A stretch of DNA of 64,000 bases from Gemmatirosa kalamazoonensis (lineage in GTDB: Bacteria > Gemmatimonadota > Gemmatimonadetes > Gemmatimonadales > Gemmatimonadaceae), in contig NZ_CP007128.1 of the NCBI RefSeq assembly GCF_000522985.1, positions 1,906,220-1,970,219 of the forward strand. The letters are read 5' to 3'. The translations under genes and the position numbers were made by a program. Below, in pieces: positions 6,574-15,654 of this stretch. Numbering within the stretch: position 1 is the stretch's first letter; the number at the start of each line of letters is the position of its first letter. The notes below the pieces were generated by a model. That model had not been told where the DNA came from, did not search any database, and was given only the letters and a program-made list of their open reading frames with translations.

Positions 6574-6705
6574 GCGCCCGCACGACCGGCGGCATCCCGG
6601 GGTGCGCCACGCGACGCTCCCGGGGTGCCGCGCTGGACGGGCGTCGACGCGCCGGGTTACCTTCGGCACCTCGCAGGTCACCCCTCCCGGCGCCGATCCC
6701 CCCCG

Positions 6706-9015
6706 ATGGCCAGTGCCGTTCTGCTCGAGCGGCTCCAGCGCGCGCTCGAACCCGCGTACGCCATCGAGCGTGAGCTGGGCGGCGGCGGCATGTCGCGCGT
6801 CTTCCTCGCCGAGGAGCGCGCGTTAGGCCGTCGGGTCGTGGTGAAGGTGCTCGCCCCGGAGCTGGCCGAGGAGATGACCGCCGAGCGGTTCGCGCGTGAG
6901 ATCCGGGTCGCCGCCTCGCTGCAGCAGGCGAACATCGTCCCGCTGCTCACGACCGGCGGCGCCGACGGGCTCACGTACTACACCATGCCGTACGTCGAGG
7001 GACGTACGCTGCGCGACCGCCTCGGTGGCGTCGGGCTGCCGCTCGGCGAGGCGGTGAACATCGCCCGCGACGTCGCCCGCGCGCTCGCGTTCGCACACCG
7101 GCACGGGGTGGTGCACCGCGACATCAAGCCGGAGAACATCCTCATCTCCGGCGGCACCGCGGTCGTCACCGACTTCGGCATCGCGAAGGCCGTCGACCGC
7201 GCGCGGACGAACGCGTTCGGGTCGAGCTCCACGCTCACCCGCGACGGCACGTCGGTGGGAACGCCGGCCTACATGAGCCCCGAGCAGTGCGCGGGCGATC
7301 CGGCGGTCGACCACCGGTCGGACATCTACGCGTGGGGCGTGTTCACCTACGAGATGCTGGCCGGGCGCCACCCGTTCGCCGAACGGCGCACGATGCACGA
7401 GCTGATTCGCGCACACCTCGTGGAGCCGCCGCCGCCGCTGCTCGACCTGCGCCCCGACCTGCCGCCGTCGCTCGCCGGTCTCGTCGAGCGATGCCTGGAG
7501 AAGTCGCCCGAGCAGCGTCCGCTGGCCGCGGACGACCTCGTGCAGGCGCTCGACGTCCTGTCGATCACCGGCACGATGACGTCGGCGGAGTTCCAGCTGC
7601 CGGGCGTCGACGTGGAGGCGCCGTCGGTCGCGGTGCTGCCGTTCGCGAACATGAGCCCGAACCGCGAGGACGAGTTCTTCGCCGACGGGATCAGCGAGGA
7701 GATCATGAGCGCGCTCGCGCGCGTGCGCGGCCTCCGGGTGGCCGCGCGCACGTCGTGCTTCGCGTTCAAGGGACGCATGGTGGACCTGCGCGTGATGGCC
7801 GAGCAGCTCGGCGTGCGCACGGTGCTGGAGGGGAGCGTGCGCCGCGCCGGCCCGCGCGTGCGCGTGTCGACGCAGCTCGTGAGCGCGACCGACGGGCTGC
7901 ACCTGTGGAGCGAGCGCTACGACCGGGAGATCGTCGACATCTTCGCGGTCCAGGACGAGATCGCGCGCGCCATCGCCGACACGTTAGGCACCCGGCTCCG
8001 CGGCGCGTCGCTGCCCATGGTGCGCGTGACGGGCGGCCGACCCGCCGGCCCGGCGAGCGTGGAGGCGTACGAGGAGTACCTGCGCGGCCGGCTGCACCTC
8101 GACCAGCGGAGCACGAACCTCGGCGCGTCGATCGCGAGCTTCGAGCGCGCGGCGGCGCTCGACCCGGGGCTGTCGGTCGCGCACGCGGGGCTCGCGCACG
8201 TCTACACGTGGCTCGGGCTGTGGTACATCGCGCCCGCGACGATCGCGTTCGCGAAGGTGCGCGAGGCGGCCGACCGCGCGCTCTCGCTCGACCACAAGGA
8301 CGCCGTCGCGCTCGCGGCGCGCGCGATCATGGCGCTCTGGTACGAGTGGGACTGGGCGGCGGCGGAGCGGGTCGCGCAGCAGGCGATCGACGCCGCCCCG
8401 GGGCTGCCCTTGGGCTACTCGGTGATGACGTACGTACGCGTCGCCGGCGGACAGCACGAGGCGGCGATCGACACGGCCGCACGCTCCGCGTCGCTCGACC
8501 CGCTGTCGAACGCGGCGAAGACGGACCTCGGCGACGCGCTCCGCTACGCGGGACGGCACGCGGAGGCGCTCGAGGTGCTGCTCCCCGTGGTGCGGCGCGA
8601 GCCGGGGCACATCCTCGCGAACCTGTGGGTCGCCTACCAGCTCGACGCGCTGGGCGACGCCGCGTCGGCGGTGCCGCACGCCGAGCGCGCGGCGGCGGCC
8701 GCGTCGGGCAGTCCCGCGCCCACCGCGGCGCTCGCGCGCATCCTCGCGCGCGCGGGGCGCGAGGCCGAGGCGCGCGCGATCCGCGACGGGCTCGCCGCGC
8801 GCGGCGCCAGCGAGTACATCGCCGAGTACCTGCTCGCCATCGCGTCGGTGGAGCTCGACGATCACGAGACGACGCTCGCGCGGTTGGAGCGCTCGGTGGC
8901 GGCCCGCGATCCGCACATGATGCTCATGCACCGCGAGTACTACTGGGACGCGCTGCGCGGTCATCCGCGGTTCGAGGCGCTCGTGCGCACGGTTGGCGTT
9001 AGGCGGGAGACCTGA
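6706..9015 (+). CDS. Serine/threonine protein kinase with TolB-like and TPR domains
   Basis: 769 aa. The kinase domain spans about residues 15-275: glycine loop IERELGGGGMSRVF, catalytic loop VVHRDIKPENILI, VTDFGIAKAV and GTPAYMSPEQ. All catalytic residues (K, HRD, DFG) are present. From about residue 305, PSVAVLPFANMSPNRED to FAVQDEIARAIAD is the TolB/CadC-like module often fused to such kinases and to adenylate cyclases. Residues 450-760 are TPR repeats. No transmembrane helix is obvious, so it probably acts in the cytoplasm. The start ATG at 6706 gives MASAVLLERLQRAL; an ATG at 6625 would add 27 poor residues. Patatin follows 28 nt downstream, so the two may share a transcript. Substrates are unknown. 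Confidence 0.92.
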   Translation: MASAVLLERLQRALEPAYAIERELGGGGMSRVFLAEERALGRRVVVKVLAPELAEEMTAERFAREIRVAASLQQANIVPLLTTGGADGLTYYTMPYVEGRTLRDRLGGVGLPLGEAVNIARDVARALAFAHRHGVVHRDIKPENILISGGTAVVTDFGIAKAVDRARTNAFGSSSTLTRDGTSVGTPAYMSPEQCAGDPAVDHRSDIYAWGVFTYEMLAGRHPFAERRTMHELIRAHLVEPPPPLLDLRPDLPPSLAGLVERCLEKSPEQRPLAADDLVQALDVLSITGTMTSAEFQLPGVDVEAPSVAVLPFANMSPNREDEFFADGISEEIMSALARVRGLRVAARTSCFAFKGRMVDLRVMAEQLGVRTVLEGSVRRAGPRVRVSTQLVSATDGLHLWSERYDREIVDIFAVQDEIARAIADTLGTRLRGASLPMVRVTGGRPAGPASVEAYEEYLRGRLHLDQRSTNLGASIASFERAAALDPGLSVAHAGLAHVYTWLGLWYIAPATIAFAKVREAADRALSLDHKDAVALAARAIMALWYEWDWAAAERVAQQAIDAAPGLPLGYSVMTYVRVAGGQHEAAIDTAARSASLDPLSNAAKTDLGDALRYAGRHAEALEVLLPVVRREPGHILANLWVAYQLDALGDAASAVPHAERAAAAASGSPAPTAALARILARAGREAEARAIRDGLAARGASEYIAEYLLAIASVELDDHETTLARLERSVAARDPHMMLMHREYYWDALRGHPRFEALVRTVGVRRET

Positions 9016-9043: not shown

Positions 9044-10111
9044 ATGCCGGTGCGCAACCTCGTGTTCCAGGGCGGCGGCGTCAAAGGGATCGCCTATGTC
9101 GGCGTGCTCGGCGCGCTCGAGGAGGCCGGCGCGCTGGCGACCGTGACCCGCGTCGCCGGCACGTCCGCCGGCGCGATCACCGCGGCGCTCGTCGCGTGCG
9201 GCGCCACCGCCGCGGATCTCTCCGACGCGCTCACCCACACGTCGTTCAGTTCGTTCTGCGATGGGCACGGCGGGATCCTCGGCGACGCCGACCGGCTGCT
9301 CCAGAGCGGCTTCGGCATCCACCCGGGCGAGACGATCGAGACGTGGCTCCAGCAGCAGATCGGCGCCGTCACGGGGCGACTGTTAGGCACGCCGCGTCCC
9401 GACCTCACGCTCGGCGCGCTGCACGCGCTCGTCGGCGACCACGGCGCGCCGTTCCGCGAGCTGTACGTCATCTCCACCGACCTGTGCGGCCAGCGCGCGC
9501 GCGTCCTCTCGGCGGCGACGACGCCCGACCTCCCGGTGTGGCGCGCCGTGCGCATGTCGATGAGCATCCCGATCTTCTTCGCGGCGGTGGAGCAGGACGG
9601 GACGTGGTGGGCCGACGGCGCGGTGTCGTGGAACTACCCGATCGACCTGTTCGACGGCGTGCGCCGCCAACCCGTGGACAGCGCGCAGCTGCCGGCCGCG
9701 ACCGACGACGGCGAGACGATCGGCTTCTGCATGGGCACGCAGACCGAGGTCGCCGCGCTCCGCTCGGGGTGGCAGCTCCCGCCGGTGCAGGTGCAGGACT
9801 TCGCGTCGTACATGTCGTCGCTCGTGAGCTTCCTGCTGAACGAGTCGACGCTGCTGCACCTCGACGCGAGCGACCTCGCGCGCAGCGTGTTCATCGACGT
9901 CGCCGGCGTGCGCACCACGCAGTTCGACCTCACGCCGGAGCAGGCGGCGACGCTCGTCGCGAACGGGCGCAGCGCGACGACGGCGTTCCTCGCCGCGCGC
10001 GCGGCGAGCACGGCGAGCACGGCGAGCACGGCGAGCACGGCGAGCCCCGGTGTGCCCGGGGGAGACCTCCCGTCCGCGCCCGCCACGCCACCGGCGACGA
10101 CGCCCGCGTAG
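9044..10111 (+). CDS. Patatin-like phospholipase
   Basis: 355 aa. Patatins are Ser-Asp dyad lipid acyl hydrolases. The oxyanion motif FQGGGVKG is near residue 10, the nucleophile elbow GTSAG near 44 (Ser in GxSxG), and the Asp in ADGAVSWNYP near 190, so all active-site parts are present. No signal peptide is visible, so a cytoplasmic or self-exported enzyme is likely. The ATG at 9044 follows GGAGACCAC. The tail is an Ala/Ser/Thr linker (STASTASTAST) made by four perfect 9-bp repeats, then a Pro/Ala-rich end. It is the first gene of a codirectional group with an unknown protein, DyP peroxidase and hydrolase-P450. Confidence 0.9.
   Translation: MPVRNLVFQGGGVKGIAYVGVLGALEEAGALATVTRVAGTSAGAITAALVACGATAADLSDALTHTSFSSFCDGHGGILGDADRLLQSGFGIHPGETIETWLQQQIGAVTGRLLGTPRPDLTLGALHALVGDHGAPFRELYVISTDLCGQRARVLSAATTPDLPVWRAVRMSMSIPIFFAAVEQDGTWWADGAVSWNYPIDLFDGVRRQPVDSAQLPAATDDGETIGFCMGTQTEVAALRSGWQLPPVQVQDFASYMSSLVSFLLNESTLLHLDASDLARSVFIDVAGVRTTQFDLTPEQAATLVANGRSATTAFLAARAASTASTASTASTASPGVPGGDLPSAPATPPATTPA
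10004..10039 (+). repeat. 9-bp tandem repeat inside patatin gene
   Basis: Four perfect copies of gcgagcacg plus a degraded fifth, coding Ser-Thr-Ala units near the patatin C-terminus. The period is a multiple of three, so copy-number change would alter linker length without breaking the frame. Confidence 0.9.
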
Positions 10112-10207: not shown

Positions 10208-10744
10208 ATGCACTCCGCGCCCGCCACGAAGTTCGACTTCGAGGACAGCTACGCCGTCGGGCCGTCCGCGCCGGCGCCCGAGGCGGCGGCGCCGGCCGTC
10301 TACGATTTCGGCGAGCACTCGCTGGCCGTCGACGGCCAGGTGCAGCGGGGGCTGAACCTGTTCCTGCCGCTGAAGAGCCCCGCGCAGATGCCGGCGCTGT
10401 TCGCCGCGCTCGCCGCGCACGCGCCGACGACGCAGAAGGCGCTGCGCGAGCTGCACTACGTGCACTTCGCCCGCTTCGTCCCGACGCCCGACGGCTCCGC
10501 GCTCATCGTCGTGACGGAGTACGACGGCGACCTGCGGTCGTACGTGATGGACTTCGTCGCCGTGCTCGGCGACATCTTCACCGCGATCCTCGAGTTCGTG
10601 AAGGGCGCGCCGCCGCTCCCCGTGCAGCGGTACCCCGAGGAGTTCTGGGCCTTCGTGCAGCGGAACAACATCGACGTGCCCGTCTGGAGCGCCTACCCGC
10701 ACATGACGGTCATCGACATCCTGCGCGCGCGCCGTGCGCGGTAG
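10208..10744 (+). CDS. Unknown protein of the patatin/DyP/P450 cluster
   Basis: 178 aa, not assigned to a named family. The stretch RELHYVHFARFVPTPDGSA followed by TEYDGDLRSYVMDF looks like a ferredoxin-like fold with a conserved HFAR...DGD pattern that I associate with proteins near or fused to DyP peroxidases; that link is from memory, not search. The middle segment (VLGDIFTAILEFVKGAPPLPV) is hydrophobic but too polar for a sure membrane helix, and there is no signal peptide. The ATG at 10208 is preceded by CTGGAGG. It sits 96 nt after patatin and 48 nt before the DyP gene, all on one strand, so it is probably co-transcribed and may assist the peroxidase or its substrate. Confidence 0.75.
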   Translation: MHSAPATKFDFEDSYAVGPSAPAPEAAAPAVYDFGEHSLAVDGQVQRGLNLFLPLKSPAQMPALFAALAAHAPTTQKALRELHYVHFARFVPTPDGSALIVVTEYDGDLRSYVMDFVAVLGDIFTAILEFVKGAPPLPVQRYPEEFWAFVQRNNIDVPVWSAYPHMTVIDILRARRAR

Positions 10745-10792: not shown

Positions 10793-12367
10793 GTGACCAC
10801 CCCCGACGACGCGGCCGCGAAGGCCGCCGTGACCCCGTCCGACCTGTCGGACATCCAGGGCAACGTGCTGCGCGGCGTGCGCGCCGGCCTCGCCCGCCAC
10901 TACGTGCTGACCATCGGCGATCCGGCGCAGGCGTCGCGCGCGATCCTCAGCCTCACGCCCGACGCCGACGACGCGGACGGCGACGGCGTGGACGACGACG
11001 GCCTGCGCGTGTCCACCGCGCGGGAGTGGAACGAGCGGCCGAAGTACTTCATGAACGTCGGCCTCACGCACGCCGGGCTCACCGCCCTCGGCCTGCCGCC
11101 GGGCGTGCTCGCCGCGTTCCCCGAGGCGTTCCGCGGCGGCCCGCTGCGCGTGAACGCGAACTCCGGCATCCCCGTGCCGATCGAGCTCGGCGACGTGCGT
11201 CCGGCCCTCACGGATCCGAAGCACACGACGCTCGACGAGACCGATCCCGGTCACCCCAAGACATGGGCGTTCGGCGGCACCGCTACCGCGCCGGTGCACG
11301 TCGTCGTCTCCATCTACTGCGATCCCGACGACGCGCGCGGCACGCTCGACGAGTACGACGCGAAGCTGCGCGCGCTGTTCGCCGCGCACGCGCTCACCGT
11401 GGCGTCGACGCACGACGCGGCGGGGCTTCCGGGCGGCACCGTGCACTTCGGCTACCGCGACGGCATCGCGCAGCCGCGCGTCGCCGGGATGCCGGGGCGC
11501 GTGCGGCGCGACATGCAGCCGACGTCGACGCCGGGCGAGTTCCTGCTCGGCAAGGGCTACGTCAACCAGTACGGCGGCAACTTCCTCCTCGGCCTACCCG
11601 AGGAGCTGGGCGCGAACGGCACGTACGGCGCGCTGCGCATGGTGAAGCAGGACGTGCGCGCGTTCGAGGACTTCATCGAGCTCGCGGGCCAGCGCGCGAA
11701 CATGAGCAAGGAGCTCGTCGCCGCGAAGCTCATGGGCCGCTGGCGCAACGGCAAGCCGCTCGCCCTCGCGCCAGAGGACGAGAGCACCCCCGTGAGCGAG
11801 GCCGAGATCAATCGGTTCGACTACGCGCCCACCGCGCACCACCCGAACAGCTACGACGACGCCGACGGGCTGCGCTGCCCGATCGGCTCGCACGCGCGGC
11901 GCATGAACCCCCGCGGCGCGCTCGTCATGGGCAAGCCGCACGCGCGTCGCATCATCCGGCGCGGCATGCCGTACGGCCCGGCGTTCGATCCGTCCGCGCC
12001 GGACGACGGCGTGGAGCGCGGGCTCGTGGGCTACTTCGTCTGCGGCGACATCGAGGCGCAGTTCGAGTTCCTGCAGGCCACGTGGGGCAATCGCGACTTC
12101 TCGACGAGCTGCATCCGCGGCACCGTGGACCCGATCGTCGGCACGCCGGCGCCGTACGGCGGCAGCTTCACCATCCGCACCGACGACGGACGCGATCCGA
12201 TCTCGTTGGGCGGGCTGCCGCGGTGGGTCACCACGCGCGGGGCGGCGTACTGCTTCCTCCCCGGCATCGGCGGGCTGCGCTGGCTCGGCGAGCGGCGCTG
12301 GGAGCAGGCGGCGCAGCCGATGGGCTACCCGTCGCCGACGGCCGCGTTGACGCAGCCGACGACGTGA
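10793..12367 (+). CDS. DyP-type heme peroxidase
   Basis: 524 aa, long for the family and closest in size to the larger DyP classes. Hallmarks in order: DLSDIQGNVLRG at residues 17-28, FGYRDGIAQP (the GxxDG motif with the distal Asp) near 223, IGSHARRMNPRG (proximal heme His) near 363, and FEFLQATWGN near 425. DyPs use hydrogen peroxide to oxidise dyes, phenols or other bulky substrates. No Sec or Tat signal is visible, so it may be cytoplasmic or packed into a compartment, but no encapsulin gene is seen nearby. The GTG at 10793 has GAGGAG 9 nt before it. The stop TGA overlaps the GTG start of the next gene (GTGA), showing translational coupling to the hydrolase-P450. Confidence 0.93.
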   Translation: MTTPDDAAAKAAVTPSDLSDIQGNVLRGVRAGLARHYVLTIGDPAQASRAILSLTPDADDADGDGVDDDGLRVSTAREWNERPKYFMNVGLTHAGLTALGLPPGVLAAFPEAFRGGPLRVNANSGIPVPIELGDVRPALTDPKHTTLDETDPGHPKTWAFGGTATAPVHVVVSIYCDPDDARGTLDEYDAKLRALFAAHALTVASTHDAAGLPGGTVHFGYRDGIAQPRVAGMPGRVRRDMQPTSTPGEFLLGKGYVNQYGGNFLLGLPEELGANGTYGALRMVKQDVRAFEDFIELAGQRANMSKELVAAKLMGRWRNGKPLALAPEDESTPVSEAEINRFDYAPTAHHPNSYDDADGLRCPIGSHARRMNPRGALVMGKPHARRIIRRGMPYGPAFDPSAPDDGVERGLVGYFVCGDIEAQFEFLQATWGNRDFSTSCIRGTVDPIVGTPAPYGGSFTIRTDDGRDPISLGGLPRWVTTRGAAYCFLPGIGGLRWLGERRWEQAAQPMGYPSPTAALTQPTT

Positions 12368-15300
12368 CGGCGCCCTCCGCCGGCGCGGCGTCGTTAGGCG
12401 CCGCGCCGCTCGGTCCCACGCTCGAGCCAGCGTTGGTCGCCTGGTTCGGCGCCACGTCGTTCCCCGACGGCGGGGACGATGCCGCGCCGCTCGGGCAGGC
12501 GGCGTTCGAGGCCACGTACGCGCGCCTGCTCGCCGCGGCGCGCGCGCCGGGGCTGCTCCCGCCGCTGTTCGCGCTCGAGGCGCCGCTCGCTGCGATCCGT
12601 CCCGACGCGCCCGTGCCGGTCGCCGTGGCCGACGTGCCGGTGTCGATCGCCGACGCGGACGAGGCGCGCGCCGCCGCGGCGCGCGCGTTCGACGGCGCGC
12701 CGGCCACGGCGGCCGACGTCGCGACCGCGCTCGCGCCCAACGCCCACTCGAGTCGCGCGTTTCTCGCCGCCGCGCTGCTGCACGAGCAGTGGGGGCGCGA
12801 CGCCGCCGTCTATCGCGGGCGCGACGTCACCTATGTGCTCGACGAGCGCTTCTGGGTCGCGCTCCCCGGTATGCCGCGCCCCGACGCGATCGAGCTGGAC
12901 CCCGGCGACGGCGCGGGCGCGCGTGCCGTCTCGTTAGGCGGCACGGTGGCGGCAACGTACGCCGAGGGGGTGACCACGGCGACGGTCACGCTGCGCGCGC
13001 GCTATGGCGCCGAGTCCCGCACCGCACGCTTCACGCTCCCGGTCGGCGGCCCGCCCGCCGCTCCCGTGCCCGACGAGACGTGGCCGCTCTCGGCCGAGGT
13101 GCCTAACGAGGCACCGGTGACGGGCACGGCGAGCGTGTGGCACGGTGCGGGCAACGCGCGTGTCACCTACCCGATCGTCGTCGGCGAAGGGTTCCCGGGC
13201 GGCTACGCGCCGGACTACATGTACGACATGCTGAACCAGGCGGGGCTCGCCGACGCGCTGCGCGCGCGCGGCTGGGACCTCGTCGTGGTGCACTACGCCT
13301 CGGGCACCGATCCGATCCAGCGCAGCGCGCGCGTCGTGACGGCGTGCGTGGGCGAGCTGCACCGCCGCGGCGCGCCGCCGCAGCTCGTCGGCGGCGTGAG
13401 CATGGGCGGGCTCGTGTCGCGCTACGCGCTGCTCCGCATGGACGCCGATGGCGTCGCGCACGGCGCGCACACGTTCCTCACCGTCGACTCGCCGCACCGC
13501 GGCGCGTACACCGCGGCCGGCGACCAGTGGCTCGCGCTGCGGCTCGCGCCCGTGTCGCCGCTCGCCGCGACGCTCGCCGGTGCGCTCGCCACGTCGGCCA
13601 ACCAGCAGTTCGTCATGCGCGTCGTCGACGGCGACCGCGTCGGGCCGAGCGCGCTCCGCGCCGCGCTGCTCGCCGAGCTGCAGGCGCTCGGCGACTGGCC
13701 GCGTGGCGTCAGGCGGCTCGCCGTGTCGAGCGGCAGCGGCGCCGGCGTCGTCGATCGCGCGACGGCGAGCGGTCCCGCGCTCACGCTCGACGGCGCGCCG
13801 TTCGCCGAGCTGCGGTTGTACCTGGAGCCCGCGGCCGGCGAGCACGCGGTCGTCGCCGCGGGACGGTGCGCCGTCGCCGCGCCCGGGGTCCCCGATACGC
13901 TCACCGTCACGAGCGACGAACGGTGGGCCGACGTCCCCGGCGGCACGAACGACTACACCGCGATCGCCGCCGGCATCGCCCGCGCGCTGGGCAGCGGCGA
14001 CGTCACGTGCGACGCGCCGATCTGCTGCTCCGTGCCCACGGTGAGCGCGCTCGCGCTCGACCAGGACCCGCGCGCACCGGTGCCGCCGCCATCCAGCGGC
14101 GCATCGCCGTTCCACGACTACGCGTGCGCGGAGCGCGACGAGCACCACTGCGTCATCACGCCGTCCGTGGCGGCGTGGATCCTCGATCGACTCGGCTCGC
14201 CGCACGACGTCAGGCCCACCCCCGAGAGAGAGGCCGCCATGGCCACGACCGTCCGTCCCGCCGTCACCTACGCGCCGCCCGCCGCGCCGTCCCCGACGAC
14301 CTTCGACCCGTCGACGGTGAACGTGCACGATCCCGCATACCTCGCGAACCCGTACCCGACCTACGCGCGGCTGCGGGCGGGCGCGCCGGTCGCGGCGCTC
14401 GCGCCGTATCCCGGCGTGTGGGTGACGCGCTACGACGACGTGAAGGCGGCGCTCCTCGACCAGGACACGTTCCGCAAGGCGCCCGTCTCCGCGGCGCCGG
14501 GCGCGATGCCCGCCGGCGTGTTCTCGGCCGACCCGCCGTTCCACGACGCGATCCGCGGCGTCGTCGAGCCGCCGATGCGGCGCGCGTTCGCCCGCGCCGC
14601 GGCGGCGGCGAACGGCATCGTCGACGAGATCCTCGCCGGCATCCGCGCGAGCGGCACGCGGCGGCTCGATCTCATGATGGACTACGCGCTGCTCGTGCCG
14701 TCGGGCACCCTGTTCACGCTTCTCGGCCTGCCGCAGTCGGACTGGCCGATGCTGCGCAGCATGGTGACGGCGATCGCCGGGGCGAACGACATCACGCAGT
14801 CGGTCGGCGTGCGGACGATGGGCGGCATGAGCGCCATGGCGCTTTCCGGCTACTGCCAGGGCGTGCTGCGCGTCGCCGCCGGCGCGCCCCCCGAGCTGTG
14901 GGTGCTGCGCCAGATGCTCGATGCGGCGACGGCCGCAGGGCTCGATGCCGCCGACGTGCAGACGTCGGTCGTCAACTTCATCGTCGCCGGCTACCTGTCG
15001 ACGACGTTCCTCATCGGCACGGCGGTCGTGAACCTGCTCGCGAACCCCGAGCAGCTCGCCGCGCTGCGCGCCGATCCATCGCGCATCGACAACGCGGTGC
15101 AGGAGTTGATGCGCTACGACGCGCCGGCGCAGCTCGTCGACCGCGTGACGTCGCGCGACGTCACCATCGCCGGCACCACCGTACCCGCCGGCACGGTCGT
15201 GAAGCTCGTCCTCGGCTCGGCCAACCGCGACGAGACGAAGTTCCCCGACCCAGACCGCCTCGACATCGGGCGGCCCGACCTGCGCGAGACCGCGATCCCG

Positions 15301-15471
15301 TTCGGCGCCGGCATCCACACGTGCATCGGCGCGCCACTCGTCGGCATCGTCGCGCCGATCGCGATCGGGCGGCTCGTGGGCGAGCTGCCTAACGTGAGGG
15401 TGGACGGGCTCGTGACCTGGCAGACCGACCCGTACCTGCGCGCGCCGGCGAACGTGCCGCTGGCGATCTAA
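12364..15471 (+). CDS. Alpha/beta-hydrolase joined in frame to cytochrome P450
   Basis: One open frame of 1,035 aa. Residues 1-260 are an Ala-rich region with a beta-type domain. Residues 270-610 form a lipase-like alpha/beta hydrolase with nucleophile elbow GGVSMGGLVSRYA and DSPHRGAY. From residue 626 (MATTVRP) a complete cytochrome P450 of 410 aa follows. It has ExxR in QELMRYDAP and the heme-Cys loop FGAGIHTCIGAPL. The I-helix reads VAGYLSTT, so the usual acidic residue before Thr is absent. The P450 part has its own ATG (14239) and a good ribosome site, so it may also be made alone; no stop separates the two. No ferredoxin or reductase gene is close. The start overlaps the DyP stop. The substrate is unknown; lipid-like compounds are a guess from patatin and lipase. 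Confidence 0.85.
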   Translation: MTAPSAGAASLGAAPLGPTLEPALVAWFGATSFPDGGDDAAPLGQAAFEATYARLLAAARAPGLLPPLFALEAPLAAIRPDAPVPVAVADVPVSIADADEARAAAARAFDGAPATAADVATALAPNAHSSRAFLAAALLHEQWGRDAAVYRGRDVTYVLDERFWVALPGMPRPDAIELDPGDGAGARAVSLGGTVAATYAEGVTTATVTLRARYGAESRTARFTLPVGGPPAAPVPDETWPLSAEVPNEAPVTGTASVWHGAGNARVTYPIVVGEGFPGGYAPDYMYDMLNQAGLADALRARGWDLVVVHYASGTDPIQRSARVVTACVGELHRRGAPPQLVGGVSMGGLVSRYALLRMDADGVAHGAHTFLTVDSPHRGAYTAAGDQWLALRLAPVSPLAATLAGALATSANQQFVMRVVDGDRVGPSALRAALLAELQALGDWPRGVRRLAVSSGSGAGVVDRATASGPALTLDGAPFAELRLYLEPAAGEHAVVAAGRCAVAAPGVPDTLTVTSDERWADVPGGTNDYTAIAAGIARALGSGDVTCDAPICCSVPTVSALALDQDPRAPVPPPSSGASPFHDYACAERDEHHCVITPSVAAWILDRLGSPHDVRPTPEREAAMATTVRPAVTYAPPAAPSPTTFDPSTVNVHDPAYLANPYPTYARLRAGAPVAALAPYPGVWVTRYDDVKAALLDQDTFRKAPVSAAPGAMPAGVFSADPPFHDAIRGVVEPPMRRAFARAAAAANGIVDEILAGIRASGTRRLDLMMDYALLVPSGTLFTLLGLPQSDWPMLRSMVTAIAGANDITQSVGVRTMGGMSAMALSGYCQGVLRVAAGAPPELWVLRQMLDAATAAGLDAADVQTSVVNFIVAGYLSTTFLIGTAVVNLLANPEQLAALRADPSRIDNAVQELMRYDAPAQLVDRVTSRDVTIAGTTVPAGTVVKLVLGSANRDETKFPDPDRLDIGRPDLRETAIPFGAGIHTCIGAPLVGIVAPIAIGRLVGELPNVRVDGLVTWQTDPYLRAPANVPLAI
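14224..14241 (+). promoter_or_regulatory. Internal ribosome site and ATG for the P450 domain
   Basis: The purine run gagagagagg (14224-14233) lies 5 nt before an ATG at 14239 inside the hydrolase-P450 frame. Translation from here gives 410 aa, the normal size of a free bacterial P450. This suggests either a recent stop-loss fusion or dual production of fused and free P450. Confidence 0.55.
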
Positions 15472-15478
15472 GGGCCGC

Positions 15479-15556
15479 CTCACGCGGAGGCGCGGAGAAC
15501 GCGGAGAACACCGACTGCTCTTGGTGTGCTCCGCGTTCTCCGCGTCTCCGCGTGAG
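15479..15556. repeat. Long palindrome, CGCGGAGAA-type arms
   Basis: Arms 15479-15512 and 15523-15556 are reverse complements over 34 nt with about three mismatches, built from a repeated cgcggagaa-like unit. It starts 7 nt after the P450 stop codon, which fits a terminator or mRNA 3'-end hairpin. There is no T-run. Confidence 0.85.
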
Positions 15557-15654
15557 ATGCGTACGCCGGTCTTTGTCAGAACCCTGACAGAAGCCGCACC
15601 GCTGCGGCGCTCCGTGGTTTCGCGCGTGTGGTCCCGCGCCTAGCGTCCGTCGCC

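Follow-up and report, generated by a model that had tools for sequence, protein, structure and literature searches.

An in-frame hydrolase-cytochrome P450 fusion with a candidate internal start at the end of a predicted peroxidase operon in Gemmatirosa kalamazoonensis

Gene content of the locus

The window analyzed here is a stretch of 64,000 nucleotides from the soil bacterium Gemmatirosa kalamazoonensis (NZ_CP007128.1), in which a small protein, a DyP-type haem peroxidase, a hydrolase resembling lipases and a cytochrome P450 are encoded one after another on the forward strand, the last two within a single open reading frame (Table 1). No Pfam or NCBIfam match was obtained for the small protein. 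The peroxidase matches TIGR01413 under the cut-off of that model, and it matches DyP structures in the PDB with values down to 6.5e-48. Loci L009 and L010 contain orthologues of the peroxidase, and L063 has the C-terminal end of one. The order small protein-DyP-hydrolase-P450 is kept in the loci that are long enough (L009 and L010), and the contig of genome G452 carries DyP, hydrolase and P450 in this order. On the basis of gene order, the hydrolase and the P450 are predicted to be the terminal genes of a conserved four-gene operon. The earlier note on this DNA had found the fusion of the two enzymes and had overlooked both the operon with its DyP peroxidase and the unusual I-helix of the P450 described below.

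The small protein and DyP also occur together in a cyanobacterium, Gloeothece (L058 9305-11359), and the small protein adjoins DyP more weakly in Bradyrhizobium and Terrarubrum plasmids (L059 5356-7347; L060 4561-7341). Its position directly upstream of DyP is thus seen in Gemmatimonadota, one cyanobacterium and two alphaproteobacteria, with weak similarity among the small proteins, and it is possibly a dedicated DyP partner.

As for the flanking genes, a patatin-like phospholipase gene (9044-10111) is found ahead of the operon only in the window and lies outside the conserved unit; in two related genomes, G122 and G352, a divergently oriented gene for a cyclase/ATPase-type regulator stands in its place. 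In both of these genomes the P450 gene is followed on the same strand by a Ser/Thr kinase gene with TPR-like repeats (L081 172-2688; L080 4864-7230), and a kinase of similar layout is encoded upstream of the operon in the window (6625-9015). The hairpin just beyond the P450 stop codon has an arm, CTCCGCGTTCTCCGCGTCTCCGCGTGAG, with 196 copies in the genome at up to 3 mismatches and 0 in the reversed control. The copies often form inverted pairs about 50 bases apart and are found on the chromosome and the large plasmids. The hairpin is thus one member of a dispersed palindromic repeat, which looks like a REP/BIME-type family, and it may act as a transcript end.

Table 1. Features of the hydrolase-P450 locus, with positions in the window
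Feature	Position	Strand	Evidence
Small protein, 178 aa, first operon gene	10208..10744	+	Homologues upstream of DyP in L009 and L010; same gene pair in Gloeothece L058
DyP-type haem peroxidase with GYRDG motif; TGA stop overlaps hydrolase start	10793..12367	+	PDB DyP matches; orthologues
Fused open reading frame, 1,035 codons	12364..15471	+	Translation; codon-usage likelihood; same join in L063
Hydrolase, 625 aa, LCAT/DUF676/PGAP1-like alpha/beta hydrolase	12364..14238	+	Weak profile matches; 40-44% identity to three relatives
Candidate nucleophile Ser346 in GVSMGG	13399..13401	+	Invariant in four orthologues
Linker, combining the former hydrolase C-terminal tail with a Pro/Ala-rich extension at the P450 N-terminus	14194..14316	+	Comparison with relatives; in-frame codon bias
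Shine-Dalgarno-like GAGAGAGAGG	14224..14233	+	Duplex -7.5 kcal/mol, top 2-3% of internal ATGs
Cytochrome P450, 410 aa from internal ATG	14239..15471	+	PF00067 1.7e-19; many PDB P450s
I-helix motif AGYLSTT	14986..15006	+	Alignment with 31 P450s; same type in L009, L010 and L063
Haem-binding loop FGAGIHTCIG with Cys ligand	15301..15330	+	Alignment of 31 P450s
Near-perfect long hairpin just 3' of the P450 stop	15479..15558	+	MFE -76.4 kcal/mol, z -10.9

The joined reading frame

Translation of the joined frame from its GTG start gives 1,035 residues with a single, terminal stop (TAA); residues 1-625 are those of the hydrolase, and 626-1035 form a complete P450. The GTG overlaps the stop codon of the upstream DyP gene as GTGA and, because this overlap is conserved in all four loci, it is a credible start. 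The length of the frame by itself is weak evidence, because open frames are cheap in DNA so rich in G+C: an antisense ORF of 849 aa spans the same DNA, and around the join phase 2 has no stop between 14000 and 14500. A codon-usage likelihood model built from approximately 170-190 long genes of the same genome is more informative across the junction. Over the 15 codons that precede ATG 14239, the given frame scores about 6 natural-log units higher than either of the other two, and over the 26 codons that follow, about 9 or more. The single frame spanning both enzymes, as proposed in the earlier note, is therefore borne out by translation and codon usage. Taken together, codon usage, the Shine-Dalgarno duplex and the recurrence of the join in G452 (see below) support the join beyond chance.

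The hydrolase part could be assigned only by weak Pfam matches (LCAT, 0.0015; DUF676, 0.0038), with scores under the curated cut-offs (16.3 bits vs 20.3 for DUF676 and 12.6 vs 24.3 for PGAP1), and a PDB search with the hydrolase profile returned no match. A GxSxG nucleophile elbow is present as GVSMGG in all four orthologues, and Asp375, Asp585 and His595, also invariant, are candidate catalytic residues; the AlphaFold model of the hydrolase, with a mean pLDDT of 41.7, is too poor to bear on the fold. Searches of plasmids yielded distant Streptomyces hydrolases, with no annotated P450 adjacent in the single region viewed.

At the join, the P450 of the window has about 17 additional Pro/Ala-rich residues that are absent from the three relatives. 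This stretch would lengthen the tether between the two enzymes and would suit a linker role. The AlphaFold model of the fusion, with a mean pLDDT of 47, is too weak for assessing the tether.

Internal start within the joined frame

Inside the joined frame, five bases separate the purine-rich GAGAGAGAGG from ATG 14239, and the predicted duplex with the anti-Shine-Dalgarno sequence has an energy of -7.5 kcal/mol. An equally good site precedes 31 of 1,280 internal in-frame ATGs of the same genome; when the count was repeated on a slightly altered set of genes, it was similar (34 of 1,249). The score is thus supportive of internal initiation and is not proof of it. Both the sequence and the duplex energy agree with the previous proposal of a ribosome site and an ATG that would open a P450 of 410 aa. 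The proposal that the cell may make the fusion, a free P450 or both is likewise consistent with the open frame and the internal ribosome site, the free P450 being the uncertain product.

GTG 14317, part of a GTGA that contains a phase-1 stop (14318), was also considered as the P450 start and was rejected: it has no Shine-Dalgarno sequence (0.4 kcal/mol), and the preceding stretch (14239-14316) has in-frame codon bias. The GTGA itself is uninformative here, since every phase-1 TGA has such an appearance.

Fused and split versions in related genomes

We searched overlapping samples of 395 genomes of the phylum, 394 of the class, 288 of the order, 179 of the family and 154 of the order of G452. 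Among them, the hydrolase was found in three other genomes only (G122, G352 and G452). G122 and G352 represent one genus of the same family as the window (41% identity), with DyP, hydrolase and P450 arranged in the order of the window. Their hydrolase and P450 genes are separate, lie in different frames and overlap by four nucleotides as ATGA. In G452, from another family of the class (44% identity), the two parts are joined in frame as they are in the window; the open frame leaves the hydrolase, crosses the junction as ...SREVTP-MTKPFDP... and continues within the P450 until the contig ends. The search for homologues with the same fusion thus yielded one case, and the idea of the fusion as a fixed property of the family did not hold, as the two nearest relatives have two genes with a stop at this place, a situation that the earlier note had named as one that would refute its reading. 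Since G452 is joined but G122 and G352 are split, the fusion is not confined to the window, nor is it the rule.

The contig of G452 is 3.3 kb long and comes from a draft genome of 76% completeness. Its ATG is flanked by phase-1 stops, 8 nt upstream and 1 nt downstream of the A, so that the two genes would be separate if one indel had been missed there. The codon-usage advantage of the fused frame in G452 is about 6 log units when the last 15 codons are scored and only 1.1 for the last 10. Its internal ATG is preceded by GAGAGGTGA with a duplex energy of -7.1 kcal/mol, a value reached at 23 of 393 internal ATGs (5.9%) and hence less special than in the window. A GAGAG(N)GG-type site stands directly 5' of the ATG in both fused loci, whereas the scores are weaker in the split loci of G122 and G352 (-4.4 and -2.4 kcal/mol). 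The pattern, with a Shine-Dalgarno site where the upstream stop is missing and a weak one where stop and start overlap, is suggestive, with two loci on each side, and fits two alternative ways of securing P450 synthesis.

In the phylogenetic tree, the four operon P450s form one clade with 100/100 support and a long stem. Within it, G452 branches first, followed by the window and then by G122 and G352, an order with weak support (92/50). One change would suffice if the fusion came first and was later split in G122/G352, or if a single fusion occurred and the window and G452 are sisters; two independent fusions would require two changes.

The P450 part and its I-helix

PF00067 is the sole Pfam domain found in the fusion (70.4 bits vs a cut-off of 22.8), and the best sequence matches of the P450 in the PDB are ordinary soluble bacterial P450s. 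The K-helix ExxR motif is intact (ELMR), as is the FxxGxxxCxG haem loop. The I-helix motif, AGYLSTT, has Leu where Glu/Asp is usual and Ser where Thr is usual, and the canonical acid-alcohol pair (AGxE/DT) is not found in this P450. The orthologues have AGYYSTT, AGYWSTT and AGYISTT, so that all four operon P450s share the form AGY[L/Y/W/I]STT. Most paralogues in the family keep Glu/Asp (AGHETT, AGHEAT or GGIETT), and the acid-less motif sets the operon P450s apart from most of the 28 other P450s compared. In most P450s the acid-alcohol pair of the I-helix relays protons, and peroxygenases lack it (PMC5818669). The missing acid hints at an unusual chemistry of the four P450s, perhaps driven by peroxide; for the P450 of the window, use of peroxide is put forward as a hypothesis only. 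The conserved loss of the acid beside a haem peroxidase marks a group of P450s whose chemistry is likely unlike that of standard monooxygenases.

No orthologue was found in two contig scans using back-translated peptides; the sole locus that they returned, an Erythrobacter P450, proved to be a distant paralogue. Plasmid searches for the P450 gave generic P450s only.

Proposed working of the operon and alternative explanations

The best explanation, which we hold with a probability of about 0.6, is a translationally coupled four-gene operon ending in the hydrolase and the P450, from which a hydrolase-linker-P450 fusion and, in addition, a free P450 would be produced. As no stop separates the two parts, any ribosome reading the hydrolase would be expected to continue into the P450 and to yield the 1,035-aa protein. 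The fusion is thus the product that can be predicted most safely, and the hydrolase would most likely be made only in this form. At the Shine-Dalgarno site and ATG of the join, additional ribosomes could start and produce the free 410-aa P450, which is a probable second product. In the split relatives, the ATGA overlap would couple termination to re-initiation and lead to two proteins.

The hydrolase and the P450 probably act together in one pathway, because the join recurs in one distant relative and the genes are kept as a pair in two closer ones. Natural fusions generally point to enzymes acting together. Closely spaced gene pairs in E. coli and Haloferax are also enriched for subunits of heteromeric complexes (30% and 45%, compared with ~6-7% of distant pairs; PMC10666635). 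Both enzymes may work on one substrate stream, in which the hydrolase would free or trim an acyl or ester compound and the P450 would then oxidise it, the tether replacing a complex or coupling of separate enzymes.

The strongest competitor, appreciably less probable than this reading, is that the fusion alone is made and acts as a purely bifunctional hydrolase-P450, the internal ribosome site being a relic or a product of chance. The frame without a stop and a Pro/Ala-rich linker longer than in the relatives are in its favor, and 2-3% of internal ATGs have an equally good site by chance. However, the GAGAG(N)GG-type site is present in both fused loci and weaker in both split ones, as if it had been kept for use.

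It is also conceivable, but improbable, that the join is neutral: in GC-rich DNA, where stops are scarce, a coupled gene pair may have come to share one frame by drift, with the product being cut or tolerated and the enzymes acting separately. Two relatives are split, open frames come cheaply at such a GC content, and the tree permits a single change or two independent fusions. Recurrence of the join at ~44% identity in a genome of another family argues against a neutral origin, as does the codon bias kept across the linker.

A stop codon hidden by an assembly or sequencing error in the window, a suspicion raised in the earlier note, is very unlikely. The PacBio-only assembly of 2014 could retain rare indels (PMC3974934), and the join contains a C5 run and a (GA)4 run. 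Yet the genome of strain KBS708 (5,312, 1,106, 1,041 and 21 kb) was sequenced to 118x on the chromosome and polished with Quiver (PMC3974934), codon bias fits the given frame, and the join recurs in G452. Moreover, phase 1 first meets a stop 79 nt into the P450, and no phase-2 stop occurs up to 14500; because no alternative frame stops at the join, an indel error could not restore ordinary separate genes in the window. A phase-variation switch, in which slippage in the C5 or (GA)4 run (14219-14232) would toggle between fused and separate products, is least credible of all, given that the runs are short, that G452 has the join without a (GA)4 run, and that a slipped frame would not stop at the join but 27 codons into the P450 or much farther on.

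Beyond the preferred reading of a fusion plus a free P450, a more speculative extension, which we regard as improbable, would bring in the peroxidase as well. The tethered hydrolase would hand its product to a P450 without the normal I-helix proton relay, the P450 would use peroxide or hydroperoxide made or managed by DyP, and the internal ribosome site would set the ratio of tethered to free P450.

Comparison with known systems

The earlier note had stated that no common hydrolase-P450 fusion of this order was known. We found no bacterial case in the papers searched, which is weak evidence of absence; a fungal fusion of the reverse order is known. This protein, MpaDE of mycophenolic acid biosynthesis in Penicillium, is a natural P450-hydrolase single chain that performs successive steps (PMC4708987). 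In addition to being fungal and having the P450 before the hydrolase, it differs from the window in having neither an internal ribosome start nor split bacterial orthologues. The hydrolase of MpaDE is of another fold.

The self-sufficient fusions CYP102/BM3 and CYP116B/RhF are likewise single chains in which a P450 is combined with a second catalytic domain. In these, the P450 is paired with a reductase domain, whereas the partner in the window is an N-terminal alpha/beta hydrolase, and Pfam detected no reductase or ferredoxin domain in the fusion. The CYP152 peroxygenases (OleT and BS-beta) resemble the operon P450s in the absence of the acid-alcohol pair of the I-helix (PMC5818669). They have Arg-Pro at this place, whereas the four operon P450s have [L/I/Y/W]-S (Leu-Ser in the window); because Arg-Pro is absent, the P450 of the window is not a CYP152 member.

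With respect to termination-reinitiation pairs, G122 and G352 present a textbook 4-nt ATGA, and the DyP-hydrolase junction is GTGA in all four loci. In contrast, the window and G452 have no stop upstream of the P450, and the downstream start has a Shine-Dalgarno site of its own. As fused and split versions of one operon coexist, both the value of tethering and the exchange of a stop-start overlap for an internal ribosome site are directly testable, and the tethering of a hydrolase to a P450 could serve biocatalysis.
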